From Chytriomyces cf. hyalinus JEL632 (lineage: Eukaryota > Chytridiomycota > Chytridiomycetes > Chytridiales > Chytriomycetaceae): 64,000 nucleotides of DNA. The notes beneath the pieces are model-generated. The model was not told the origin of the DNA and made no database searches. It saw only the letters and a program-made list of their open reading frames with translations. The stretch lies in the NCBI GenBank assembly GCA_025435555.1, contig JAIWWG010000116.1:1-64000 (forward strand), written 5' to 3'. A program made the translations under genes and the position numbers. Below are positions 15,047-32,786 of the stretch, piece after piece. Positions within the stretch are counted from its first letter, which is position 1; each line of letters starts with the position of its first letter.

Positions 15047-16586
15047 ATGGTCAACACGGATCCGGACACCGACTTTACACCCTACGCTTCCATCACAAAG
15101 AAGGAGCTGCACAAGATCGTCATCGCCTCCTGCGTGGGCACGCTCATTGAGTGGTATGACTTCTTCGTCTTTGGATCCATGGCAAGCACCACTGCTTCGC
15201 TGTTCTACAAGACCGGGACTCCCACCGGTGATATCATTGCTTGGCTGGCTGCGAACGCCGTTGGCTTCATTTTCAGACCCTTCGGAGCCTTGGTGTTCGG
15301 ATACATTGGTAAACACGATCTTTCTCGTTCTCTTGTTCCAAACTGTGTTTTTCTGAATCATGATACTCTCAAAAACAGGCGACAAGGTGGGCCGCAAATA
15401 CACGTTCGCTCTCACGCTCGTGACAATGGGTGTGTGCACGGTGCTGTGCGGGTGTCTGCCCACATACGACAACATTGGTCCAGCTGCCGGTGTGATTCTC
15501 ATTATCCTGCGTATCATTCAAGGTCTCGCCATTGGTGGAGAGTATGGTGGCGCTGCGAGTTACATTGCGGAACATTGTCCTCACAAGGAGCGAGGTTTCT
15601 GGACCAGTTTTTTGCAGAGCACGGCCACAGGCGGTCTCATTCTTGCACTTGCTATCATTCTCATTTTCCGTGTCTCGTTGGGAGAGGCTCGATGGGCTCA
15701 GTATGGATGGCGGTTCCCCTTCCTCATTTCCATCTTTATGATTGCCGTTTCGCTGTACATCCGTCTCAAGATGAAGGAGTCGCCACTTTTCGCCGAAGCA
15801 AGACTGAAGGGAAAAGTCGCCAAGAACCCGCTCGTTGAATCTTTCCTGAGACCTTACAACTTGTACTACGTCATCTTGGCTCTGTTTGGTGCTACAATGG
15901 GTCAAGGCTGCGTTTGGTACACGGCCCAGTTTTATGCATTGACCTTCATTCAAACTACCCTCAAGACACCGCTGATTACGTCGTACCTGGTCGTCATGAT
16001 TGCATGCATTCTCGCACTTCCATTCTTTACGCTTGTGGGTTGGTTGTCCGACAGATACGGTCGCAAACCATTCTTGTTGGTTGGAATCACTGCGGGAGCT
16101 GTGTTCTTTTACCCAATGTACATGGGTCTTTACTACTTCCGTCCATACGAAAACAACAAGGCCACTGAAGCATTCCGTGACGAGTACAGCCCTGCTATGC
16201 TTGGATTCATTGTCTGGATGATGATCATCTTTGTCACGATGGCATATGGTCCCATTGCCGCTTTCTTGGTGGAACTATTCCCAACTTCCATCCGATACAC
16301 GTCCATGTCGCTGCCGTACCACATTGGAAACGGAATCTTTGGAGGTCTTGTTCCAGTATTGGGTGTCACTGTTGCAACTGCGACCGGAAACCGATACGGT
16401 GGACTGTTTTTCCCGATCGTTTGTGCCGGGATCACTTCCATTGTTTGCCTGGCTCTTGTGCCAGAGACGATGGGACGTGATATTGAAAACATGGAAAAGG
16501 CTGGTGCCAACACTCTGGACAAGGAAGAGGCTGCAAACCGGGAGACACTTGCTGCCGCGCCGGGACATTTCGTCACAAGTGCTTGA
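15047..16586 (+). CDS. MHS-family metabolite:H+ symporter, copy 1
   Basis: Two exons (15047-15308 and 15379-16586) join to 489 residues. The protein shows the hallmarks of the metabolite:H+ symporter branch of the MFS (TC 2.A.1.6), best known from bacterial ProP, ShiA and KgtP-like carriers. These are GTLIEWYDFFVFG in helix 1, FRPFGALVFGYIGDKVGRK in loop 2-3, GLAIGGEYGGAASYIAEHCP in helix 4, and LVELFPTSIRYTSMSLPYH in helix 10. Twelve membrane helices are expected, with both ends in the cytosol. It probably brings an organic acid or zwitterion across the plasma membrane with protons; the substrate is unknown. Two paralogues lie at 34940-36453 and 43366-44913. The intron falls between FGYI and GDKVGRK, as in the second copy but not in the third. 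Confidence 0.9.
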
Positions 16587-16679: not shown

Positions 16680-17823
16680 CCACAATACTTTGGTTCGACA
16701 GAAAAGGAAAAACAGGCGGTGTCGGCAATGGTCATAGCTACCTCAGCAGTTAAAAAAACACTCGCGTTGGAAAGTGGATTAGCCTTATCACGCGGAATCA
16801 AGCTTTACCGAAGATTGAACCTGGGTTCGTCCACGCGTGATGATATCAGGAAACACAAAAGAGTTTCTCTCGAGGCATTGACAGCTGATGCAAGTTCTTA
16901 TGCTGCCAATGGCTCTGTTGGTGCTGGCAGAATAAGTGACAATTTGTTGATCATATTCTGCGAGGATGCTGGTCCTTTTTTGTCATTAGGTTCATGTTTA
17001 TTGGATTTCATTTAGTTGGGGCTATTAAGCATTGCAAGTTCCCCTCTTTAACCCAGCCGCGTTTCCACGGCAGTGGCCGCTTGCACACTGGGAATCGATC
17101 CAGCATGAAACACCGTTCGGCACGAGCTTGCAGTAGTCGTATCCAGCATACATTGTAACGCCGGCAGCACCATCTGGCTTGTTGCGGCAACATCCCTTGT
17201 TGCCCGTAGCACCCCAATATGCGCAGATGGAGGAGTAGCAGTCAAAGTAATCGCCACACGCGGCTCCCGGTTCAGATTGCAGGACTTTGTATCCGCAGAC
17301 AGCACCGTTGGCACTCGTTGGTCCGAATCCCCAGTAGCGGCCATCCTTGAGCCAGCATATGCCACTGCCCCATGTAAAGTAGGTGCATTCGTTGGATTCC
17401 AAGCATTTGCGGCCACACTGTTCGGCTGGAACATTGTAGTGGGCATAGTCACCGCCGTTAAAGTCGCAGTTGGGGGCCCATTGGATTTTGCCGTTGCCGT
17501 CGCCGGCGTTCCAGTAAAAGTCTTGGGCCAAAGTGGAGGAGACGAGCGTGACTGAGACGAGGAGAACTTTGGTGAGTTGCATGCTTGTTTTTTGGTGGTT
17601 ACAGTTGTTGTTTTTGCCTCAGACGGGTTTCATACCTTTCAGGCTGGATTTCAAGCGTTGATAGCAGACGCGACGCAAATTGATTGGAGATTTCCTTGAG
17701 AATTTTTCCCTTGAGCGAATCTCCAAAACGAGGTAGCCACGCCATCTCAAGCGGAGTGCGCGATTCCCAGGCCAGCCCCATTATACGAGGCTGGCTTGGT
17801 GTTTAATCATTTCCAGAGGCCAT
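16680..17823. repeat. direct repeat, copy 1, carrying a PAN-type gene
   Basis: This segment recurs in the same orientation at about 22782-23922. From about 16798 to the end the two copies are nearly identical, in the non-coding 3' flank, the whole PAN-type gene and its upstream region. The first 120 bases are more diverged. The sharp loss of similarity after the shared TTTCCAGAGGCC marks the right border. Confidence 0.85.
17025..17582 (-). CDS. small secreted PAN-type Cys-rich protein, copy 1
   Basis: A single-exon protein of 185 residues. The first 19 residues form a signal peptide (hydrophobic core VLLVSVTLVSSTLA, likely cut before QDFYW). Residues about 35-95 resemble a PAN/apple module: CDFNGGDYAHYNVPAEQCGR followed by CLESNECTYFTW and a later VCGYK. 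PAN modules bind carbohydrates or proteins. The last 85 residues are a Cys-rich module with paired cysteines (CGDYFDCYSSICAYWG, CC, SCWIDSQCASGHC). That module resembles the tail of the large fusion protein encoded next door. The gene faces that fusion gene head to head with 300 bases between the start codons. A secreted adhesion or effector role is plausible but not shown. It is almost identical to copy 2 at 23120-23677. Confidence 0.85.
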   Translation of the reverse strand: MQLTKVLLVSVTLVSSTLAQDFYWNAGDGNGKIQWAPNCDFNGGDYAHYNVPAEQCGRKCLESNECTYFTWGSGICWLKDGRYWGFGPTSANGAVCGYKVLQSEPGAACGDYFDCYSSICAYWGATGNKGCCRNKPDGAAGVTMYAGYDYCKLVPNGVSCWIDSQCASGHCRGNAAGLKRGTCNA

Positions 17824-17882: not shown

Positions 17883-20800
17883 ATGCAACTCCTTCTGTTC
17901 GTGCTATCGCTGGTAGGCCTGAGCCACGCCAGCTTCTGGCTCCAAGAAATCAAGCACCAGGGACTGTTGCCTTTTGGCGGTGACAGTGCATACACCTTAT
18001 TCAGAGATGTTCGCGCGTATGGCGCCATGGGTACACCCTTCCTCTTGATTGACTTGACCTTGTCCATCTGTTTTCTAAAGCATCCCTTGCTGCATTACCA
18101 GGTGACGGTATCACCGATGATACAGCCGCCATCAACAAAGCTATCACGGAGGGAAAACGCTGCGGTCTGGGTTGCGACTCCACCACAGCCACGCCAGCAA
18201 TCATTTACTTCCCACCTGGCACGTACCTCGTGTCTGCTCCGCTCATCCAGTACTACTACACCTTCATGATTGGAGACGCCAACCAACTTCCCACCATTAA
18301 GGCTGCTGCCAACTTTGTCATGACATACCCATGGTTCACTTACGTTATTGACGCGGACCCATACGGCCCTGGCGGTGTCAACTGGTTTGTGAACCAAAAC
18401 AACTTCTTCAGGCAGATTCGCAACTTTAAAATCGACCTGACTGGACTTCCTGCCACGGCCTTGATTGGCGCCATTCACTGGCAAGTTTCCCAAGCAACCA
18501 GTCTTCAAAACATTGAAATCACAATGGCCGCGGCTTCACCTGAAACGAAGCAGAAGGGAATCTTTATTGAAAACGGTGAGTGCTTTTAATTACGCGTTCT
18601 TTTGCTTGTCTGCTGCCCAATCTAACCATACCCAAAACCAAACTCCAGGCTCTGGCGGTTTTTTCACAGACATTGTCTTGAACGGCGGAGACATTGGAAT
18701 GGACGTTGGAAACCAGCAGTTTACGACGCGTAACATTGTCTTCAACGGATGCAACACTGCCGTCACCATGAGTTGGGACTGGGGATGGGTCTTCAAGTCC
18801 CTACAAATCAACAACTGTGGCACTGGAGTTGACATGAGCGTTGTCAATCCAACAAGCGGCAAACAAGACGTTGGATCGGTTATCTTGCTGGACAGTAAGA
18901 TCTCCAACACGGGAGTTGGTGTCAAGACTTCATTTGGGATCGCCAACAACGGATCGGCTGGCTCGCTTATTGTCGACAATGTGATTTTCGACAACACACC
19001 CAGTGCAGTGACGGACTCTGGAGAAGTTGTGCTGTATGGGAACACTGTTGTCAAGTCATGGGGCCAGGGATTTTATTCTGACGGCAGCTCACAGTCTCCA
19101 CCGTTCCGCATGCGGGGGAGCCTGGACAACATTGTGAAGCCAGCTGAATTACTGGACACGACCGGCAAGTTTTTCGAAAGGAGCAAACCGCAATACAAGG
19201 ACCTGCCTGCTTCCGCATTTCTCAGCGTGAAAAGTGCCGGAGCTAAAGGTGTGTGCGCTTTTTTTTGCGGAAATTTTCTCATCGCTGTCCTGACCATTTC
19301 CCCTTTGTCTTTTAGGCGACGGTTCTACCGACGACACGGATGCCATTCAAAACGTGCTCAACTCTGCTTCCTCATCGCAAGTTGTCTTCTTTGATCATGG
19401 TGCCTACCTTGTGTCGCGTACCATTCTTGTACCGAAGGGTGTCCGCATTGTTGGTGAAGCTTGGCCCATCATTATGGCAAAGGGTGCCGCATTCCAGAAT
19501 CCAACAGCTCCTGTTCCAGTGTTCCAAGTGGGTAACGTCGGGGACGTGGGGTCGGTTGAAATCTCGGATCTCATGTTTGGTAATATCTGGGAGAACAACG
19601 TGTACAATTCAATGAAACAAAACTGATTCTTTTGTTGTCATACAGAAACTTCTGGCGCGCAACCAGGTGCTATTCTCATCCAATTTAACATGAAACCGAG
19701 CTCCCCTGGTGCCACGGGAATGTGGGATGTCCACGGAAGAGTTGGTGGAACGGTTGGAAGTCATTTGCAGCAGGCCGAGTGCTTGCATGGAAGCTTAAAC
19801 TACGAATCTTGCTCCGGACCTTTCCTGATGATGCACATTACAAAGTCAGCCGGAGTCTACATTGAAAACTCTTGGATGTGGACAGCCGACCACGATTTGG
19901 ACTCTGGCGGCAGCACTCGAGTCAGCATCTTCACCGGTAGAGGAGTTCTCATTGAAAGCGAGTCGCCAGTGTGGTTGTATGGAACCGCTGCAGAGCATAA
20001 TCAGATGTACAACTACCAGTTCTCGGGAGCTTCCAACATCTTTGCTGCTATGCTTCAATCCGAGACTCCATACTACCAAGGCACCCCAGACGCGTTGACG
20101 CCCTTCAAAACCAACGCCGACTACAACGACCCCGACTTCTCCAACTGTCTTCCAGGAAGCAAATCATGCATCCGATCCTGGGGTCTTCGCGTTGTCCAGT
20201 CGAGCAACATTATGATTTACGGAGCAGGGCTGTACAGCTTCTTTGAAAACTACGCGCAATCGTGCATTGGCACGCTTTCGTGTCAAGATAATATGGTCTC
20301 CATTGAGGCCAGCAAAGTGACCATGTTCAATCTTCACACCGTTGGAACATCTAACATGATTTCGATAGACTCAGAGCCACGTGTGCCCGCTGAACCTCTC
20401 AATGCAACTTACTGCTCAACGCTTGCCATGTTTGGTGCGTATTCCTTCTCATGCTGTATATCATTTCAAATCAGTTTCTGATGCGCGTTTTGGAAAAACA
20501 ACATTTCAGTTCCTGACGTATCGTCAGTAGAGCCACCCATTACTCGTCCCTCAAAAAGAATTCGCCCATTTTGGATAGTAGGACACAACCCCAACAGCAT
20601 GGAGGAAGTGCAAAAGTTTATCGACCAAGGTGCCAACGCACTTGAACCTGACTTTGGGTACAGATCCAACGGAGGTGGGGCGATTGCCATCTGCCACTTT
20701 GTGGACGCTTCAACAGAATGTGGAGCACAGGATCAAACTGCTCAGGACTATCTTAACAAGCTTCGCGAAAAGCTTACGCAGCAAAGCCGCAAGATTTCAA

Positions 20801-22362
20801 CCATCATGTTGGACATCAAGACTTCACTGGTTCGAGCGCCGACTGCGTTTAATGCACCCATGAAGCTGATGAACTTGATTCACGACTTGACTAAAGATAT
20901 TCCTTTGAATATTATGTACTCTGTGTCTTCGTTGGATGAGGCGAAAGTGTTCTTTACACCAGAATTTGTAAAGAACTTGGGACCCAAGGAAGGAATTTAC
21001 ATTGACTACGAAAACCAGCCACAAGTTGTATTGGTGAGTCCATTTCTGTTCTTGGCTCGGTGAATTTTGAACAAAAAATGACTGGTTCTGATTTAGGATT
21101 ACTACAAATCCATCAACGCGCCTCGCTACGGTTACGGAAATGGAATTTCCTTTGCGAACCCGGGACAAGATATTTGGGCCCCAAATATTCGTCCTTCCAT
21201 TCGAGAAGCAGCTTGGTACCAAGCAGCTACTGGACAGGGTCAATCTGTCGGAACTTGGACCAGCAATGCACGTACCGACCAACTAGACTTTATTCGCGGC
21301 GGAGCGAGTTCCATTATTGTGGATACTTCAAAAAGCTCATCGGATCCATACGTGCGCGGCATACAATCATTGGTAAATCTCATCAAGTTGAACTCTGAAG
21401 TGAAAAGCCTCGTTCGATTGGGAACCATCAAAGACAACCTGTGGACATCGAATCTGGGTCGATACGGACTTGCAATCAACGTGCCTGAATATGTCGAAAA
21501 AGTGGGACCCAACCGTAATCTTATCACGCTCACACTGGTTGGCGCTAATGGCCAAGCATCGTGTGTTGTCGACTACTCGTATGCGCACCGATTGGACCCT
21601 GACGACCCGACTTATGCAACTATTGTCTCAGAGGACCTTGGAACACTGAGCAAAGTCATCGTAGACAGCCCAGTTTCAACGAAAATGAATATCCGCGTAG
21701 TCAGTTCCTGGTACTCGCAAGATATGGAGTTTGCTGATTTCACAGACATCTCAGCCGGGAAAACAGAAGTCAAGCTGCAACGACCAAGCTGCACAGGACT
21801 TTACCCTTGCAAAGGCACTGCCATGGGTTCTCCCTGCAAAAAGAACCGCGACTGCCAGAACAGAGCTTGTGGGCGATTTGGGAAAGGTGGCGACTACCAA
21901 TGCTGTCCCAGAGCAACACTTGAAAACTGGGGTGGGAGCGACTACTGTATGGGGGTTGTAACGGGTACGAGTTGTCATACAGATGCCAAGTGCGCGTCAG
22001 GTTACTGCAAGGACAGCGTATGCACAGAGCGAAAGCAGAATGGAGAAAGTATGTCTTCATTTTTACTTCTCAGTTAATTTTTTGGAGTTCTGATGAGGAA
22101 ACCTTTCTTTTCTCTTTCAATTTGATTACCAGAGTGCTCAAAAAGCGATGATTGCTTGAATCATGCGTGTGGTAGGGTTGAAGGCCGAAAGATTTGCTGT
22201 TTATCCAGTCATGTCAACGGTGCATTCTGCGCAAACGACAGCTGTAACGATGCTGATTGCGAGTTTGGATGCTGTGGTACCTCTTGCTGCCGTGATCCAT
22301 GTGCGAGCTGCAAGTACGGCTGCTGCCTTGGTTCATGCTGTGATGGCCCACCGCAGAGGTAG
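17883..22362 (+). CDS. secreted GH55 glucanase / sphingomyelinase D-like / Cys-rich fusion protein, intact copy
   Basis: Eight exons (17883-18030, 18102-18575, 18649-19248, 19316-19579, 19646-20434, 20510-21033, 21097-22048, 22133-22362) join without a break to 1,326 residues. A signal peptide covers residues 1-16. Residues about 30-757 are a complete GH55-type exo-beta-1,3-glucanase: two right-handed beta-helix halves, each opening with a pectate-lyase-3 signature (GDGITDDTAAI, GDGSTDDTDAI). Residues about 770-1100 resemble sphingomyelinase D/phospholipase D of spider-venom type. His784, Glu804 and Asp806 have the same 20/22 spacing as the venom enzymes' His12, Glu32 and Asp34. His821 is a candidate second catalytic histidine, and Asp860/Lys862 match the later DxK motif. 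Residues about 1163-1326 are a Cys-rich tail. The product is probably exported; wall beta-glucan and membrane choline or ethanolamine lipids are the expected substrates. Toxicity is not shown. Confidence 0.88.
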
Positions 22363-22781
22363 AGCGACGTTATTGTACATGATCTGCGGCGCTATTTACT
22401 GCTAAGAGTGAATAAAGCAGTATCTGAAGTATTCTACGCAAACTTGTTTTAAAGTTTGCGCGACTCGGGATTCAGAGCTTGCAAACTCTCAATTCAGTTC
22501 ATCCACGGTTTACTCTGATTTCTACCTGAAATTTGATCGCGAAGAAGACTGCGCCTGTCCGCAGAAATCTGTGTAAACGCCCTTGTCTTTCGCCGAAGGC
22601 ATGGGTTTATACAAGCCATCCTAATAGCACATGGTTGTTGAACTCTGGTGATACGAATCCACTGTAAGTCGGGACAGAATCTGGACACAGTCGCGATGAA
22701 AATCGGCTGTGTTACACAACTCAAAAGAAACTCACCTTCATTTCACAGGACTCCATATTTGTGGCTCGCGCACAATATATG
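22363..22781. other. intergenic, no gene seen
   Basis: Contains the likely 3' end of the fusion gene, with an AATAAA-type signal about 45 bases after the stop. The rest is unremarkable sequence up to the second direct repeat. Confidence 0.5.
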
Positions 22782-23922
22782 CCACAACACTTCGAGATGA
22801 GGAAAAACAGGTGGTGTCGGCAGTCGCCGCAACTACCTCGACAGTGAAATAAACACACGCGCGGGAAAGAGGATTAGCCTCACGCAGAATCAAGCTTTAC
22901 CGAAGATTGAACCTGGGTTCGTCCACGCGTGATGATATCAGGAAACACAATGAAAGAGTTTTTCTCGAGGCATTGACAGCTGATGCAAGTTCTTATGCTG
23001 CCAATGGCTCTGTTGGCGCTGGCAGAATAAGTGACAATTTGTTGATCATATTCTGCGAGGATGCTGGTCCTTTTTTGTCATTAGGTTCATGTTTATTGGA
23101 TTTCATTTAGTTGGGGCTATTAAGCATCGCAAGTTCCCCTCTTTAACCCAGCCGCGTTTCCACGGCAGTGGCCGCTTGCACACTGGGAATCGGTCCAGCA
23201 TGAAACACCGTTCGGCACGAGCTTGCAGTAGTTGTATCCAGCATACATTGTAACGCCAGCAGCACCGTCTGGCTTGTTGCGGCAACATCCCTTGTTGCCC
23301 GTAGCACCCCAATATGCGCAGATGGAGGAGTAGCAGTCAAAGTAATCGCCACACGCGGCTCCCGGTTCAGATTGCAGGACTTTGTATCCGCAGACAGCAC
23401 CGTTGGCACTCGTTGGTCCGAATCCCCAGTAGCGGCCATCCTTGAGCCAGCATATGCCACTGCCCCATGTAAAGTAGGTGCATTCGTTGGATTCCAAGCA
23501 TTTGCGGCCACACTGTTCAGCTGGAACATTGTAGTGGGCATAGTCACCGCCGTTAAAGTCGCAGTTGGGGGCCCATTGGATCTTGCCGTTTCCGTCGCCG
23601 GCGTTCCAGTAAAAGTCTTGGGCCAAGGTGGAGGAGACGAGCGTGACTGAGACGAGGAGAGCTTTGGTGAGTTGCATGATTGTTTTTTGGTGGTTGCAGT
23701 TTTTGTTCTTTTCCCATGCGGGTTTTATACCTTTCAGGCTGGATTTCAAGCGTTGATAGCAGACGCGACGCAAATTGATTGGAGATTTCCTTGAGAATTT
23801 TTCCCTTGAGCGAATCTCCAAAACGAGGTAGCCACGCCATCTCAAGCGGAGTGCGCGATTCCCAGGCCAGCCCCATTATACGAGGCTGGCTTGGTGTTAA
23901 ATCATTTCCAGAGGCCAAACAA
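22782..23922. repeat. direct repeat, copy 2, carrying a PAN-type gene
   Basis: Second copy of the segment at 16680-17823, same orientation. The non-coding flank differs only by a few small changes, for example a few extra bases near 22950. The near identity outside coding sequence points to a recent duplication or to gene conversion. Confidence 0.85.
23120..23677 (-). CDS. small secreted PAN-type Cys-rich protein, copy 2
   Basis: 185 residues, nearly identical to copy 1 at 17025-17582. It has the same signal peptide, PAN-like half and Cys-rich half. Differences are few (for example Asn for Asp before YCKLVPNG, and Thr for Ile after SCW). It again faces a fusion gene on its right, but that partner survives only as the remnant at 24329-25002, about 650 bases away. 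A longer in-frame extension upstream of the ATG at 23677 is open to 23845. I do not use it because it is not shared with the other copies and would put the signal peptide inside the protein. Confidence 0.85.
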   Translation of the reverse strand: MQLTKALLVSVTLVSSTLAQDFYWNAGDGNGKIQWAPNCDFNGGDYAHYNVPAEQCGRKCLESNECTYFTWGSGICWLKDGRYWGFGPTSANGAVCGYKVLQSEPGAACGDYFDCYSSICAYWGATGNKGCCRNKPDGAAGVTMYAGYNYCKLVPNGVSCWTDSQCASGHCRGNAAGLKRGTCDA

Positions 23923-24328
23923 TGTGAGTGAGGCCGATGGATGTGCTTGGAATGAATGCTGTGGAATGTCGTGGAATAACACTCACTGCAAACTGCTGCT
24001 GCTGTGCATGTATTGTATGGTTTTTGAGGCTGGCTGGCTGGCCGAAAATAAAATTATCCGGACTTTTCGGATTTTTGTGAATGTTTGGACCTCCAATTTG
24101 ATGACCAGCACCGATTTTTATTGCAAGATAACGCGACAGGGACCACGACGCGCATGCTCAGGGAGACACGGTGCAAGGATATGCGAAGGGATGGAATGAG
24201 GGGTAAGGGTGAGTTGAGAGTGACGCTGTCAGACAGAAGCACAGCTTCTTGGTTGCGCGTATATTCCGCCACTGCAAATTGGGAACAAGCCGGCCCGCGC
24301 TTTTTCGTTCTCGGATATAGTTCGAGGC

Positions 24329-25002
24329 TGGCGTATCACCGATGATACAGCCGCCATCAACAAAGCTATCACGGAGGGAAAACACTGCGGTCTGGGTTGC
24401 GACTCCACCACGGCCACACCAGCAATCATTTACTTTCCACCTGGCACGTACCTCGTGTCTGCTCCCCTCATCCATTACTACTCGCAAGATATGGAGTTTG
24501 CTGATTTCACGGACATCTCAGCTGGGAAGACAGAAGTTAATTTGCAACAACCTAGCTGCCCAGGACTTAACCCTTGCAAGGGCAATGCTATGGAGTCAGT
24601 CTGCAACCAGAGTCGCGAATGTAGGAACAGAGCTTGTGGGCGATTTGAGAAAGGTGGCGACTACCAATGCTGTCCCAGAGCAACACTTGAAAACTGGGGT
24701 GGTAGCGACTGTTGCATGGGCATGGCGACTGGTACGAGCTGCCATACAGATGCCAAGTGCGCGTCAGGTTACTGCAAGAACAGCGTATGCACAGAGCGAA
24801 AGCAGAATGGAGAATGTACGTGTTTTGAACTTACTCAATCTTTTAGGTACTAATGAGGGAAGGTTTTGTTTGATCTCTAGTTTGTTCACTTAATGATGAT
24901 TGCTTGAACAAGGCATGTGGCATTGCTGCGGGCAGAAGGAAAACCTGCTGCCTTTCCAGTCGCGTTATTTACGAGGACAGACAAGCATACTGCGACAGTT
25001 GA
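24329..25002 (+). pseudogene. collapsed remnant of a GH55/SMase D-like fusion gene
   Basis: The left half (24329-24480) matches the start of exon 2 of the intact fusion gene (GITDDTAAINKAI through the strand ending in SAPLIHYY). It then jumps directly to the end of exon 7, the segment before the Cys-rich tail. Both catalytic regions, about 3.3 kb in the intact gene, are gone. A TACT microhomology lies at the join. The Cys-rich region is kept in frame (GRFEKGGDYQCC, TDAKCASGYC). After an intron near 24816-24889 a shortened last exon (CSLNDDCLNKACG) ends at TGA 25000-25002. The signal-peptide exon is missing. It may be transcribed, but neither enzyme domain can be made from it. Confidence 0.8.
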
Positions 25003-25396: not shown

Positions 25397-28300
25397 CTAC
25401 CTCTGCGGTGGACCATCGCAGCATAAACCAAGACAGCAACCGTACCTGCAGCTCGCACAAGGGTCACGGCAGCAAGACGTACCACAGCATCCAAACTCGC
25501 AATCAGCATCGTTACAGCTGTCGTTAGCACAGAGACCGCTGTTGAGACGACTGGATAAGCAGCAGATTTTGGAGCTGCTGCCACCGCACGCATGATTCAA
25601 ACAATCATCGCTATCTGAACATTCTGTATCAAAAAAAAAAGATTGGCTCATCAGCAAAGCGCAAAGGAAAACAAAATAAAAGACCCCTTACTTTCTCCAT
25701 TTTGTTTTCGCTCCGTGCAAACGCTGTCCTTGCAGTAACCTGACGCGCATTTGGCATCGGTATGGCAGCTTGTACCCGTTACAACCCCCATACAGTAATC
25801 ACTTGTACCCCAGACTTCAAGAGTTGCTCTGGGACAACATTGGTAGTCACCACCTTTCCCAAATCGCCCACACGCTCTGTTCTGGCAGTCGCGGTTCTGT
25901 TTGCAGGTAGCCCCCGCAGCAGCGCCTTTGCAAGGGTAAAGTCCCGGGCATGTGGATGCTTGCAGAGCGACTTCAGTTTTTCCGTTAGAAATGTCGGCGA
26001 AATCGGAAAACTGCACGTCTTGCTTGTATGAAGCACTGACGACGCGTACAATCATTTTTGTTGACACTGGGCTCTCCACAATAATTTTGCTGAGTTTTCC
26101 AAGGTCTTCTGAGATAATGGTCGCGTACGTGGGGTTGTCAATGTCCAAACGGTTCGCATATGAGTAGTCCACAATACACGATGCTTGACCTTTGGTGCCA
26201 ACAAGCGTGAAGGCTGACGAGATCACGATCCCGTCCCACCGTTTTAACTGCTTGAGCAACGTTGATGGAAAGTCCGTATCGGCCCAGATTCGATGTCCAC
26301 AGGTTATCTTTGATTGTCCCAAAGCGAACGAGACTTTTGACTTCAGAGTTCAACTTGATCAGATTCACCAAAGATTGGATCCCACGCACGTATGGGTCTG
26401 ATGAGCCTTTTGAAGTATCTACGATAATAGAGCTGACTCCGCCACGGATAAAGTCTAGTTGATCGGTACGCGCATTGCTGGTCCAAGTTCCGACGGATTG
26501 TCCCTGTCCAGTAGCTGCTTGGTACCAAGCTGCTTCTCGAATGGAAGGACGAATATTTGGGGCCCAAAGATCTTGAGCTGGGTTTGCAAAGGAAATTCCG
26601 TTACCGTATCCGTAACGTGGTGCCTTGATGGATTTGTAGTAATCCTGTGGTTATTTGTTAATTTTCTGTTGATATTCCGCTGAGCAAGAAAGCGAACGCA
26701 CCAAAACAACTTGTGGCTGGTTCTCATAGTCAATGTAGAGTCCTTCCTTAGATCCCAATCCTTTCACAAATTCAGGAGTGAAAAACACTTTCGCCTCATC
26801 CAAAGAAGACACAGAGTACATAATGTTCAACGGAATGGATTTCGTCAAGTCATGAATCATGCTCATCAGCTTCATGGGCGCATTAAACGCGGTCGGCGCT
26901 CGAACCAGCGAAGTCTTGATATCCAACATGATGGTTGAAATCTTGCCCGGCTGTGCCGTCAACTTTTCACGAAGCTTGTTGAGATAGTCTTGAGCAGTTT
27001 GATCTTGCGTTCCGCATTCTTTTTCTGCGTTGGCCGAGTGGCAAATGGCAATGGCTCCACCTTCGTACGACCGGTATGCAAAGTCGGGTTCAAGTGCGTT
27101 TGCGCCTTGATCGATGAATTTTTGGACTTCTTCCATGGTATTGGGGTTGTGTCCTACCACCCAGAATGGTCGGATTCTTTTGGGGGTGCTAGGGGTGGGT
27201 GGCAGGTCTCCTGATGACTTTCCAGCAATGACTGTCATAATTTCAAAAAACATGTCAAGAACTAAGCAAGCGCAAGTTCAAATACTCTTACCAAACATGG
27301 CAAGCGTTGAGCAAAAAGTCGCATGGAGCGTTTCCGCAGGAAGAGAAGGGACAGAATTGATTGCAATCATATTGGATGTCCCTACAGTGTTGAGATTGAA
27401 CATGCTCACTCCTCGACTGGACTCGATGGAAACCATGTTATCTTGACACGAAAGTGCGTCGATACACGCCTGTCCATAGTTTTCAAAAAAGCTGTACAGG
27501 CCTGCTCCGTAAATCATAATGTTGCTCGACTGGACAATACGCAGTCCCCAGGATCGGACGCACGATTTGCTTTCTGGAAGGCAATTGGAGAAATCGGGGT
27601 CATTGTAGGTGGGGTTGGGTTTAAACGGCGTTAACGCGTCTGGGGTGCCCTGGTAGTATGGAGTCTCAGATTGAAGCATGGCAGGCAAAGATGTTGGAAG
27701 CTCCCGGAGAACTGGTAATTGTACAACTGATTATGTTCAGCAGCGGTTCCATACAGCCAGACAGGCGACTCGCTTTCAATGAGAACTCCTCTTCCTGTGA
27801 AGATGCTGACTTGAGTGCTGCCGCCAGAGTCCAAATCGTGGTCGGCTGTCCACATCCAAGAGTTTTCAATGTAGACTCCAGCGCTCTTTGTAATGTGCAT
27901 CATGAGGAAAGGTCCTGAGCAGGTTTCGTAGTTCAAGGTTCCATGCAAGCACTCGGCCTGCTGCAAATGACTTCCAACCGTGCCACCAACTCTTCCGTGG
28001 ACATCCCACATTCCCGTAGCACCAGGGGAGCTCGATTTCATGTTGAATTGGATGAGAATAGCATCCTGGTTGCGCGCCAGAAGTTTCTGGAAAATAACAA
28101 CAGAATCAGTTTATGTCACAAGCAACATTGCCTTTGCAAATCTTACCAAACATGAGATCCGAGATTTCAACCGACCCGACATCCCCAACATTGCCCACTT
28201 GAAATACATGGAACTGGGGCTGCTGGATTCTGGAATGCGGCACCCTTTGCCATAATGATGGGCCAAGCTTCACCAACAATACGCACGCCTTTCGGGACAA

Positions 28301-29834
28301 GAATGGTACGAGACACAATGTAGGCGCCATGGTCAAAGAAAACAACTTGCGATGAGGAAGCAGAGTTGAGCACGTTTTGAATGGCATCCGTGTCGTCGGT
28401 AGCACCGTCACCTGATAAAAAAGAACGGGGAGAAATGAGCAATAAGAAATACTTTTGGGAAAAATAATATAGAAGTAAGGCGCACACACCTCTCGCTCCA
28501 GCACTTTTCACACTAAGAAACGCGGACGCAGGCAGGTCCTTGTATTGTGGCTTGCTCCTTTCGAAAAACTTGCCACTCGCGTCCAGTAATTCAGTGGGCT
28601 TCTCAATGCCGTCCAAGCGACCCTGCATGCGGAACGGTGAGTCACCGCCAAAATAGACTCCCTGTCCCCATGACTTGACCACCGTGTTTCCATACAGCAC
28701 AACTTCTCCAGAGTCCGTCACTGCAGTGGCTGTGTTGTCGAAATTCACATTGTCGACAACGAGCGAGCCCGGATGATCCATTGCTGGCGATACCGAAGGA
28801 GGTCTTGATACCGATTCTGGTGTTGGAGATCTTACTGTCCAGCAAAATTACAGATCCAACGTCTTGTTTGGCCACTCGATGGATTGACAGCGCTCATGTC
28901 GATTCCAACGTCACAAGTGTTGATTTGTAGGGACTTGAAGACCCATCCCCAGTCCCAACTCATGGTGACGGCGGTGTTGCATGAGTTGAAGACAATGTTA
29001 CGAGTTGTAAACTGCTGGTTTCCAACATCCATTCCAATGTTTCCGCCGTTCAAGACAATATCGGTGAAAAAACCCGCCAGATCCTTGGATTCTATTTGGT
29101 CAGGCGGAATTCCCAGTTGTCAAGTAAAATTCTCACCGTTTTCAATAAAGATTCCCTTCTGCTGGTTGTCGGGCGAAGCCGGAGCCATGGTGATTTCAAT
29201 GTTTTGGAGACTGGTTGCTTGAGAAACTTGCCAGTGAATTCCAGCCAATCAAGGCCGTGGCAGGAAGCCCAGTCAAATCGATTTTCAAGTTGCGAATCTG
29301 GCGGAAAAAGTTGTTCTGGTTCACAAACCAGTTGACACCGCCAGGGCCGTACGGGTCAGCGTCAATAACGTAAGTGAACCATGGGTATGTCATGACAAAG
29401 TTGGCGGCAGCCTTGATGGTGGGAAGTTGGTTGGCGTCTCCAATCATGAATGTGTAGTAGTACTGGATGAGCGGAGCAGACACGAGGTACGTGCCAGGTG
29501 GGAAGTAAATGATAGCTGGTGTGGCCGTGGTGGAGTCACAACCGAGACCGCAGCGTTTTCCCTCCGTGATAGCTTTGTTGATAGGCAGGCTGTAGTCATC
29601 GGTGATACCGTCACCTGGTAATGCAGTCAAGGATGCTTTAGAAAACAGATGGACAAGGCCAAGTCAATCAAGAAGTAAGGGTCACCCATTGCTCCGTACG
29701 CGCGAACATCTCTGAACACGGTGTATGCGCTGTCACCGCCGAATGGTAAGACTCCTTGGTGCTTTGATGTCTTGAAGCCAGAAGCTGGCGTGGCTCAGAC
29801 CGACCAGCGACAGCACGAACAACAGGACTTGCAT
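25397..29834 (-). pseudogene. GH55 / sphingomyelinase D-like / Cys-rich fusion gene, full-length inverted copy with frame breaks
   Basis: Same exon order, intron positions and domains as 17883-22362: signal peptide, two GH55 beta-helix halves, SMase D-like domain (most of it open at 27253-26651, with the GHNPN and DIK motifs kept) and Cys-rich tail ending at 25397. The frame is interrupted at least eight times: near 29,790, 29,245, 28,865, 28,768, 28,205, 27,705, 27,682 and 26,230. Near 29,600, close to the start of exon 2, three extra bases together keep the frame. Every difference in phase is one extra base relative to the intact copy; no single-base losses were found. Either the gene is decaying by insertions only, which would be odd, or the assembled sequence has insertion errors and the gene is intact. 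A TATA box stands at 29884-29877. Confidence 0.75.
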
Positions 29835-29876
29835 CTGGTTTGAAAATTTCGTTGAATGCTGGAATGGCGTGAGTGG

Positions 29877-29884
29877 TTTTTATA
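29877..29884 (-). promoter_or_regulatory. TATA box of the inverted fusion gene
   Basis: TATAAAAA on the minus strand, about 43 bases before the ATG at 29834. Confidence 0.55.
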
Positions 29885-30478
29885 TGATTATATTGGTGCA
29901 ATCAGGAATAATTTAAGAGGGCTTGTCTGGTAGCACGCGAACTTGGGCTGGCTGACTCTCTTCCGCCTCAGGCTCCCTTCCTCTTCCTCAGTTGCATCCT
30001 CAGTTGCTGTATGCAGTATGTCCCTCTGCGTGCGTGCATGCATGCATGCATGTGCATCCCATCCCTGGTAACGTTTTCCGTCCTTCCGTCGGTGCCGTTC
30101 CTTGTCCTCGTCGCGTGCCCCTTAATCACAGAACTCACCGAGAAATTCAATCCAATCAACCAAGCTCCGACGCAATTTAATATCAACAAAGTAAATTGCG
30201 TTTGCCACAATGTTCAACACCCGAAAATAGAAAATAGTGTTTGCCGCTTTCAATCACATTCCATTCATCGCATTCCATCGCACTCTGCAGACAACAATCA
30301 ACAATTAATTCGGATGCATCATCCGCGCATGCATACATACACACATTGTTGTTGCCCAACAAATTGCCCAGTTTTGTTTCTTTATTTGGAGATAGATTCG
30401 CTCAAGTGAATTTCAATCAATCAATTGTAAACAATCAAACTGACTTGCAAACAACTCAAGCCCAGTCAATCCAAACAA

Positions 30479-30499: not shown

Positions 30500-30572
30500 A
30501 CCAACAACCCAACAACCCAACAACCCAACAACCCACCAAAACAAACAAACAAACAAACAAACAAACAAACAA
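30500..30572 (+). repeat. CAACC and CAAA microsatellites in a 5' leader
   Basis: About six units of a CAACC/CAACCCAA pattern are followed by about eight CAAA units, ending four bases before the ATG at 30576. An A/C-rich leader without secondary structure would suit high translation. Confidence 0.8.
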
Positions 30573-30575
30573 AAC

Positions 30576-31126
30576 ATGCGATTCACCAAAGCTCTCTTTG
30601 CTGCAGTCACCCTCGTCTCCTCCACCCTCGCCCAAGACTGGCACGACGGCGACGGCAACGGCAAGATCCAATGGGCCATGGACTGCGACTTTAACGGCGG
30701 CGACTACGCTCACTACAACATCCCCGGTGAAGCAGTGTGGCCGCAAATGCTTGGAATCCAACCAATGCACCTACTTTACATGGAACAACGGCGTTTGCTG
30801 GCTTAAAGACGGCCGCCACTGGGGAATCACTCCTTGGGGTGCCAAGGGTGCCGTTTGCGGTTACAAGCGCCAAAGAAATGACGGTGACGAATGTGGTGAT
30901 TACTTTGACTTGCTACTCGTCCATCTGCGCGTACTGGGGTGCCACGGGCCATAAAGCATGTTGCCGCAACAAGCCAGACGGTCAAGCCGGCGTGTCTGGG
31001 TATGCCGGATACGACTACTGCAAGCTTGTCCCTGACGGTGTTTCATGCTGGGCCGATGATCATTGTGCAAGCCGCCACTGTCGTGGAAACTTGGGTGGGC
31101 TTAAGCGGGGAACTTGCAAGGCTTGA
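30576..31126 (+). pseudogene. small secreted PAN-type Cys-rich protein, copy 3, two frame breaks
   Basis: Homologous over its full length to the two intact copies (17025-17582, 23120-23677) but more diverged. It has the signal peptide MRFTKALFAAVTLVSSTLA, the PAN-like half with QCGRKCLESNQCTYFTW, and the Cys-rich half ending in RHCRGNLGGLKRGTCKA. Two breaks interrupt it, near 30,728 and near 30,905. Each is one extra base relative to the intact genes, and downstream protein similarity is preserved each time. As the conserved cysteines all remain, sequence error is as likely as decay. It stands head to head with the inverted fusion gene, completing the third divergent unit. Confidence 0.75.
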
Positions 31127-31450
31127 TTGATGGTGGGCCGCTGTCGGAATAGAAAAATAAATTAGACATCGCGCGCGACTCGAAATACATTTACCAATTG
31201 AACTATATATGTACTCAACATCCTTGTCATGTTTGTTCGGATTATCATCGATCCTATTAAATAGTAGATTTGAAAGCAAATATCAGATATTTACACGCAG
31301 ACACACAACAGCCGAAAGTCTCATTGGCAGTTCATTTTGTAAGCCGCACTTTGATTCTTCAACGCGTTTTTTATTTCTTTAGATTTACTTTGATTCTTCA
31401 CCGCGTTTTTTACTTCTTTAGATTTACTCTACATATCCTCACAACACACT

Positions 31451-32421
31451 TCAACAGCTGAGAGGAATTCTGACAGCATCCTTGTCATGCTTGTCCAAGT
31501 TTCCAAGGTCAAAGATGCCTTCAAGGGTAGCCAAGAAGCTGTAGTGGTCATAGTGCGCATTGTCGACAAGACCTGCTCCCTTGATGCCCTTTCCGAGGAG
31601 AATCGAGTCTGTTGAAAGACAGAGTAAATACGCTTGAATAAAGAAATACAAACAGAATCAAAAATTAAAATACACACAGATATGGTTTGGCCCAAAATAC
31701 GTCTCCGACTCATCAAACACAACGTGAAACAACACATTCGCAAACGCAGGGTCCACCAATTTGGGCTCCAAAAACGTCTTGAGCCAGTTGGAAGCATACG
31801 ACGCGCTCGTATCATGTCCGTCATTGTTCATATCAGGTGTGTAGAAAATGTAATTTGGAAGCTTTCCAGCAGCCGCGTCACGGGTGAGTTGGTCCGAATT
31901 GACAATGTTGGCGCAACGGGTGAGGTTCCCGCGGATGTTGTTGAAGGACATGAAGGGGTTGTGTTTGCGGCGGTATGTGCCAGGAGGATGTGCCGGTGAA
32001 GCAGTTTCCTGGGTAGGATTCTTGGTATGATTTCCACGTCTTGCCTTTTTGCTCGAGGAGGTCAACGACCGAGTTCTGTTGGTGGGGAGAATGCGTCAGT
32101 TTCATTGGTATTTCTTGATTGTGTGATACTCACAGCGCCAATCTTGCAGTCAAAGTCAAGCAGACACATGTTTCTGCTTCCGGAGATCATGGCAATGTAG
32201 TTTGGCTGGGACGGGTGAGTGACGCCATAAAAGTTGTTGAGCAGGTATCCCTTCTTGACGAGTGTGCTGCCCATGTAGGAGTCAGCCAGGATGGTGGATC
32301 CGTCCTGGTTCTCAAGGACAATGGTCATGACGCTCTTGATGGGCTGGCATGCGGCTGCGACTTGGGAGACGGCTGCAGCAGCAAGGACTGCGAGAGCGAG
32401 TGCGGAGTTGGCGAAGTGCAT
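31451..32421 (-). CDS. secreted phosphoesterase-family protein (acid phosphatase / phospholipase C type)
   Basis: Exon 1 (32421 to about 32134) encodes a signal peptide ending near VAAAC, then VMTIVLENQDG and GVTHPSQPNYIAMISG. These are the metal-binding motifs of the phosphoesterase family (PF04185), found in fungal acid phosphatases and bacterial phospholipases C. Exon 2 (about 32079-31681) has the NCFTG...RKHNPFMSF segment and FDESE, another family signature. Exon 3 (to 31451) has DNAHYDHYSFLATLEGIF and the terminal LGNLDKHD segment. About 310 residues in all, normal for fungal members. One extra base near 31,982, between NCFTG and RKHNPF, breaks the frame of exon 2; everything else is intact, so I call it a gene. 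It probably releases phosphate outside the cell. Confidence 0.8.
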
Positions 32422-32786
32422 TTTCTGACTGGAATTCTGATCACCCCCAATTGTGACTATTTCTCGTTTGTGCTTAGCAGTTTGCAGTGATCAATTTTCT
32501 GTGTGGACTTGGGTTTTCAATTTTCAAAAATTGGTCACGCGGCAAATTGCATCAAACCAACGAACATGTGCCCATCAGCGTATGTAAACCTGCCTTCTTC
32601 AGTGAATGGCATTTATTTATGCGACGAGACAGGCGCAGTCATCATTATGATCAAGTAGCAGCAGCAGTAGCAGCACCGTGCATGAACTGAGTCTGGTCTC
32701 TTCACAAGCTCACATCCAAAAAGCGGCATTATTACACTGAAATCTTCATTTTATTCTTTAAGCACACACACACATGAACATCACTG

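Follow-up and report, generated by a model that had tools for sequence, protein, structure and literature searches.

The GDPD-like enzymes of the sphingomyelinase D/phospholipase D (SMase D/PLD) type include the toxins of Loxosceles and Sicarius venom and the PLD of Arcanobacterium haemolyticum (PDB 9yd8). Members with PLAT, Ig and Cys-rich tails have been described (Cordes and Binford, 2018; PMC6299612, in part), among them basal members with a C-terminal PLAT domain and a fungal protein, from Pyrenochaeta, that combines SMase D with PLAT. The exo-β-1,3-glucanases of glycoside hydrolase family 55 (GH55) are represented by the solved chains of CtLam55 (5m5z) and PcLam55A (3eqn), 757 and 758 residues long, which hold GH55 only. 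Here we describe gene A of the chytrid Chytriomyces cf. hyalinus JEL632, in which these two kinds of enzyme appear to be joined. The gene lies in the first 64,000 nucleotides of contig JAIWWG010000116.1 (assembly GCA_025435555.1), hereafter the window (C20:1–64000), and its predicted product runs from a GH55 module through an SMase D/PLD-like barrel and a PLAT-like domain to a Cys-rich tail.

Gene structure and the counterpart on contig C47

Splicing of the eight exons of gene A gives an in-phase frame of 1,326 codons and a stop, as an earlier note on this DNA had stated, and GT-AG borders are present at all seven introns (Table 1). In the genome searched (37.8 Mb, 242 contigs) there is one intact gene on C20 and one on C47. 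The latter, at C47:48071–52549, has eight exons of identical lengths, GT-AG sites and a stop. Most of the window between 7.8 and 40.4 kb has a collinear match on contig C47, of which 28,450 of the 66,450 bases were compared; the main blocks are 93–99% identical, one block (84%) is inverted and some stretches are missing. We read C47 as the other haplotype. All six indel bases that separate the two copies of the gene fall outside exons, and there are 127 differences in 3,981 exonic positions and 34 in 496 intronic ones.

Omega between gene A and the C47 copy is 0.087 for GH55, 0.129 for SMase D and 0.123 for the Cys-rich tail. When gene A is compared with the in-frame pieces of copy B, a further copy in the window that is described below, omega for a piece of GH55 is 0.105, the two SMase D pieces give 0.103 and 0.097, and PLAT–Cys gives 0.171, so both enzyme modules have been constrained over most of that divergence. 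Both are under purifying selection.

The GH55/SMase D boundary coincides with intron 5, a phase 1 intron. The frame of exon 6 has an in-frame stop inside this intron and no Met ahead of the catalytic His, and exon 6 alone therefore cannot start a complete enzyme. Two adjacent genes were rejected for this reason and because the splice sites and phase are kept on C47; a fusion through misassembly was rejected because the collinear contig carries the same gene. HDU78_010638 (P0001) and HDU81_000700 (P0005), two deposited proteins of C. hyalinus that are themselves predictions, also span the junction. An annotation artefact seems unlikely, in agreement with the earlier note, and the sequence supports the fusion well as a gene, with a new architecture made from known kinds of enzyme. 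The note had known of no established family with SMase D behind a wall glucanase; likewise, no such established family was among the matches listed in the protein searches made, and we did not find the pairing described in the literature. The hydrophobic N-terminus of the product makes its secretion likely.

The two enzyme modules

The GH55 module is full length, as had been claimed: gene A residues 17–758 match residues 5–753 of chain 5m5z with an E-value of 2.4e-247 (phmmer), and there are further matches along the length to the solved GH55 chains 3eqn (E 5.4e-199) and 8jhh (E 4e-79). Residue roles in GH55 catalysis have been assigned in MnLam55A to a general acid Glu, an adjusting Tyr, Glu/His, a Trp pair, Asp, Gln and Ser (PMC10637969, in part). 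Mapped onto gene A by hand count on the 8jhh alignment, these roles are kept at Glu635 (general acid), Tyr638, Glu612, His613, Trp572, Trp574, Asp577, Gln180 and Ser209, of which the general acid, the Glu-His pair, the Tyr, the Trp block and the Asp are shared with CtLam55 and PcLam55A. Two of the three exo-pocket residues of PcLam55A (Asn147, Ser583 and Gln585) are also present, as Asn149 and Ser585, by a hand count with a chain-versus-paper offset of six. The GH55 part of gene A is probably an active, exo-acting, inverting β-1,3-glucanase, differing from the two solved chains by the three parts that follow it.

The barrel, as a single sequence, matches venom phospholipases D with an E-value of 7.3e-7; as a profile built with ten relatives, it does so at 4.9e-24 with the whole barrel covered. 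The segment from Arg777 to Asp806 aligns with the venom enzymes ungapped, and the next loop has small gaps only. The equivalents of His784, Glu804, Asp806, Asp860 and Lys862 are invariant in the alignment of relatives, and His821, which aligns with the second His of the venom enzymes, is nearly invariant in alignment A4. The earlier proposal that His, Glu, Asp and the DxK motif are kept in venom-enzyme spacing is thus borne out. (PMC12590764, in part, gave no catalytic residues.) The barrel has the short β–α-1 loop, with no GDPD-insert domain, by which GDPD-like SMase D/PLD enzymes are recognized. An ordinary GDPD was considered and rejected, since sequence profiles and the fold match both rank SMase D/PLD well ahead and place the barrel nearer to that group; the Pfam GDPD model scores above cut-off over ∼30 residues in two relatives, P0006 and L028. 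The multidomain β-1,3(4)-glucanase in PDB entries 7ww4 and 7wwc gave a far weaker match than the SMase D/PLD entries. PMC12448869 (in part) ties the code 7wwc once to a Pedobacter terrae glucanase and once to another enzyme, and says that the entry came without a publication.

The C-terminal plug of the barrel corresponds to GTIKDNLW (residues 1042–1049), in which Asp and Trp are kept, as is the N-terminal Arg777 (motif positions were read from a text description). We conclude that the barrel is, by its sequence, of the SMase D/PLD type with the catalytic set retained, and we predict activity on lipid. It is 18–21% identical to the Loxosceles, Sicarius and 9yd8 toxins in alignments, and gene A differs from these by the GH55 module ahead of the barrel and the PLAT-like and Cys-rich parts behind it.

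The PLAT-like domain and the Cys-rich tail

The layout first proposed had three parts, of which the glucanase, the SMase D-like domain and the Cys-rich tail all stand; a probable PLAT-like domain between barrel and tail had been overlooked. In an hhalign comparison of three chytrid sequences with five bacterial loci, residues ∼1053–1140 matched the PLAT regions of the latter with a probability of 96.1 (E 3.2e-9), and joint profiles with relatives match lipoxygenase PLAT directly after the barrel (best E 1.4e-10 and 5.9e-13). The Pfam PLAT model had no match in gene A itself. Among nine relatives scanned (P0003, P0006 and seven bacterial loci) it was found in eight, six of them above cut-off, comprising all seven bacterial loci and P0006, not P0003; a separate scan found it in P0007. 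The match behind the barrel, together with PLAT in the relatives, indicates that the unit is SMase D plus PLAT, and a separate PLAT-like domain appears to sit between barrel and tail in gene A.

Of the 161 residues in the tail 29 are Cys, and no Pfam family matched it in the scan. The possibility that it is common to many genes was rejected, because among the best candidates scored the genome matches are this locus, the C47 copy, derived copies and weak ones in small neighbouring open reading frames (ORFs). In one such ORF (17025..17618) the C-terminal half resembles the gene A tail (30% over 83 residues). A small Cys-rich, PAN_4-like ORF flanks gene A on both sides, at 17025–17618 (−) and 23120–23875 (−), the Pfam match having been tested on the first copy; 30556–31124 is a weaker relative, with DNA ∼79–81% related.

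Relatives and possible origin

The nearest named proteins belong to C. hyalinus. P0001 and P0005 are 84% and 76% identical to the SMase D–PLAT query and have the GH55/SMase D junction as in gene A; they are incomplete hypothetical proteins without stated function. In the tree P0005 clusters with gene A, and P0001 falls outside this cluster; by eye, P0001 is like copy B. P0001 carries a precomputed annotation, PF27525. Another C. hyalinus protein, P0002 (HDU80_011637), is 61% identical over 21% of the query, as a C-terminal PLAT-end piece behind a long, acidic and unlike N-terminal part, and is either another derivative or a gene-model error.

Outside Chytriomyces, the organism-named relatives of the SMase D–PLAT unit are 24 bacterial loci (Verrucomicrobiota, Myxococcota, Acidobacteriota, Methylococcaceae, sphingomonads and others), which came from a collection of bacteria and archaea only. 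A protein search in which 8,000 candidates were scored gave at least seven proteins, two of them already seen, and the C. hyalinus fusions were not among the matches listed; we take P0003, P0004, P0006 and P0007 to be bacterial. The basal GDPD-like SMase D/PLD proteins with C-terminal PLAT, such as the bacterial L028 and L029 and P0006, have the same order of SMase D and PLAT as gene A and are 26–32% identical to it but, unlike gene A, they lack GH55 and have other N-terminal parts or none. The statement in the earlier note that SMase D-like proteins are known as stand-alone enzymes needs correction, since multidomain members are published and relatives with SMase D plus PLAT occur in bacteria. 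When the genome was searched with the SMase D domain of gene A, an approach that could miss distant members, no stand-alone SMase D gene was found.

The tree (22 rows) and alignment A3 include 16 of the 24 bacterial loci; L033, L037, L045 and L047–L051 were dropped for being short, truncated or matched in part. The chytrid rows fall together on a single long branch among the rest, and the tree, in which long branches meet, does not resolve the group nearest to them. Because the tree has no venom, actinobacterial-toxin or other fungal rows, it does not settle the direction of transfer. Transfer of the SMase D–PLAT unit from bacteria is, on the sequences compared, a lead and not a result. The phase 1 intron at the boundary fits the attachment of a preformed unit downstream of a GH55 gene. 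The other GH55 genes of the genome, on C2 and C134, have no SMase D part within the 8 and 7 kb examined; introns at 207/208 (C2) and 407/408 (C2 and C134) are shared with gene A. The C134 paralogue (L026, G000:C134, 3091–4557) has a PAN-like tail, with PF08276 above cut-off, and that on C2 (L025, G000:C2, 3583–5310) has a Pro-rich linker and, by eye, a hydrophobic end like a glycosylphosphatidylinositol (GPI) signal.

Decayed copies and neighbouring sequences

Copy B has its segments in gene A order, with at least five frame changes, near residues 172, 279, 312, 625 and 1078 (tblastn). These lie away from intron sites, so copy B reads as a pseudogene, and we rejected it as another intact fusion within the window. 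On C47 the counterpart of copy B shows no match ahead of residue 290; it keeps an open frame through residues 625 and 1078 and is broken elsewhere, near 1126, and some single breaks in copy B could therefore be assembly errors. We read both as decayed. A second copy with the same layout had been claimed: the segment order agrees, the intact frame does not, and it is the C47 gene that provides a second intact example. A deletion derivative also lies in the window, and a remnant on contig C166 (L027, G000:C166, 4146–4457), adjoining DNA similar to window 31400–32506, has the GH55 end beside the PLAT end with the SMase D part missing. Copy B, the derivative and this remnant together point to a locus of repeated duplication and decay.

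Window positions 22469–24810 and 28837–30348 are missing at the matching place on C47, and are structural differences between the apparent haplotypes. The end of contig C54 (L024, G000:C54:52000–55508) is ∼97–98% identical to window 15.1–17.8 kb and 22.8–24.5 kb, and is thus a further copy or a haplotype fragment. Upstream of the locus, 15357–16586 (+) is an open frame for a major facilitator superfamily (MFS)/sugar transporter (PF00083, E 1.2e-36).

Table 1. Features of gene A and its surroundings, in window positions.
Feature	Position	Strand	Basis
Gene A, 1,326-residue GH55 – SMase D/PLD – PLAT-like – Cys-rich protein	17883..22362	+	Spliced translation of eight exons, GT-AG introns; intact counterpart on C47
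Exons of gene A	17883-18030, 18102-18575, 18649-19248, 19316-19579, 19646-20434, 20510-21033, 21097-22048, 22133-22362	+	Spliced translation
Putative signal peptide, hydrophobic, residues 1-16 (precedes 17931)	17883..17930	+	Sequence, by eye
GH55 module, residues 17-758, exons 1-5	17931..20434	+	phmmer to 5m5z, 3eqn, 8jhh
Intron 5, phase 1, at GH55/SMase D boundary	20435..20509	+	Spliced translation
SMase D/PLD-like barrel, residues 759-1049, exon 6 and start of exon 7	20510..21444	+	Single-sequence and profile matches, fold match
Catalytic set His784 (20584-20586), Glu804, Asp806, His821, Asp860, Lys862 (20818-20820)	20584..20820	+	Alignment to venom enzymes
PLAT/LH2-like domain (core ~1053-1140) and linker to residue 1165	21454..21792	+	hhalign and joint profiles
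Cys-rich tail, residues 1166-1326, 29 Cys; intron 22049-22132 within	21793..22359	+	Sequence
Small Cys-rich ORF, stop to stop, PAN_4-like below cut-off	17025..17618	−	Pfam scan; tail comparison
Deletion derivative with a short N-terminal piece of GH55 fused to the PLAT end and Cys tail	24335..24966	+	tblastn
Copy B, segments in gene A order, at least five frame breaks	25397..29834	−	tblastn

Proposed function

We propose that gene A encodes a secreted bifunctional hydrolase, in which GH55 would trim glucan and an SMase D/PLD barrel, held by the PLAT-like domain and the tail, would act at the membrane exposed by wall digestion; we put the probability of this at roughly 0.55. The GH55 half would bind and trim the β-1,3-glucan of a wall, the PLAT-like domain and Cys-rich tail would hold the barrel at the membrane, and the barrel would take the headgroup off a sphingolipid or lysophospholipid. 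The tether of a single chain would place the phospholipase beside the newly exposed membrane and favour action where wall and membrane meet. We infer that a single protein is expressed and secreted, that both its enzyme parts are active and that it binds a membrane; its target may be fungal, oomycete, algal or pollen walls that serve the chytrid as food, or the wall of the chytrid itself.

Several observations weigh against this proposal. On the barrel side, the single-sequence venom match is confined to the first 104 residues, the relative P0006 is without the second His, and scans of gene A with Pfam and NCBIfam left its SMase D and PLAT parts without a family. The structure model represents the protein of a relative, whose gene model shows differences, and not gene A itself. 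The plug motif (Arg-Asp pair, Ala, Pro, Trp) is altered, Ala to Gly and Pro to Leu, and the PLAT omega between haplotypes, 0.63 on three changes, is uninformative. In the GH55 module, Arg587 stands at the exo-pocket place of PcLam55A Gln585, and Glu140 of MnLam55A is Gln148, although 3eqn and 5m5z have Gln there too.

A more specific version we hold only tentatively: that gene A is a two-stage lytic protein that breaches walled eukaryotic cells, in which a venom-type, membrane-docked sphingolipid phospholipase rides on a wall glucanase, a bacterial-type SMase D–PLAT unit having been joined to a fungal GH55 at an intron. It is also possible, if somewhat doubtful, that the protein is a saprotroph's combined digestive enzyme, its barrel scavenging headgroups (choline, ethanolamine or phosphate) as nutrients from the lipids of detritus while GH55 degrades dead wall, and living cells are not attacked. 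Rhizoclosmatium globosum, also a chytrid, is described as saprotrophic and as secreting many chitinases, some of them bearing bacteria-like chitin-binding modules (PMC12115818, in part), and most of the barrel's bacterial relatives are from metagenome-assembled genomes, both of which would suit such a role; but nothing in our evidence separates dead from living targets.

That the protein serves to remodel the wall and membrane of the chytrid itself, as in zoospore release or rhizoid growth, we think unlikely. The GPI-like end of the C2 paralogue suggests that GH55 enzymes of this genome may serve its own wall, but gene A has no such end, and a self-directed SMase D would presumably need control of self-damage. 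Still more improbable is a barrel that has become an inactive lipid- or wall-binding module, leaving GH55 as the sole enzyme: the long chytrid branch and the altered plug would agree with this, but His, Glu, Asp, the second His and DxK are all retained and omega for the barrel is ∼0.1. Least probable by far is a prediction artefact, a GH55 gene ending after exon 5 with a separate SMase D gene behind it, which would account for an intron exactly at the domain boundary and would be compatible with deposited models that are themselves predictions, but is contradicted by the splicing and phase kept on C47, by the lack of a usable start in exon 6 and by the two models that cross the junction.

A secreted bifunctional hydrolase of this kind would place a toxin-type phospholipase family in a chytrid, covalently tied to a wall-degrading enzyme. 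It offers a case for testing how attack on wall and membrane might be coupled in early-diverging fungi and how SMase D-type enzymes have spread between bacteria and eukaryotes, as well as a natural candidate for a bifunctional enzyme that works at glucan–lipid interfaces.

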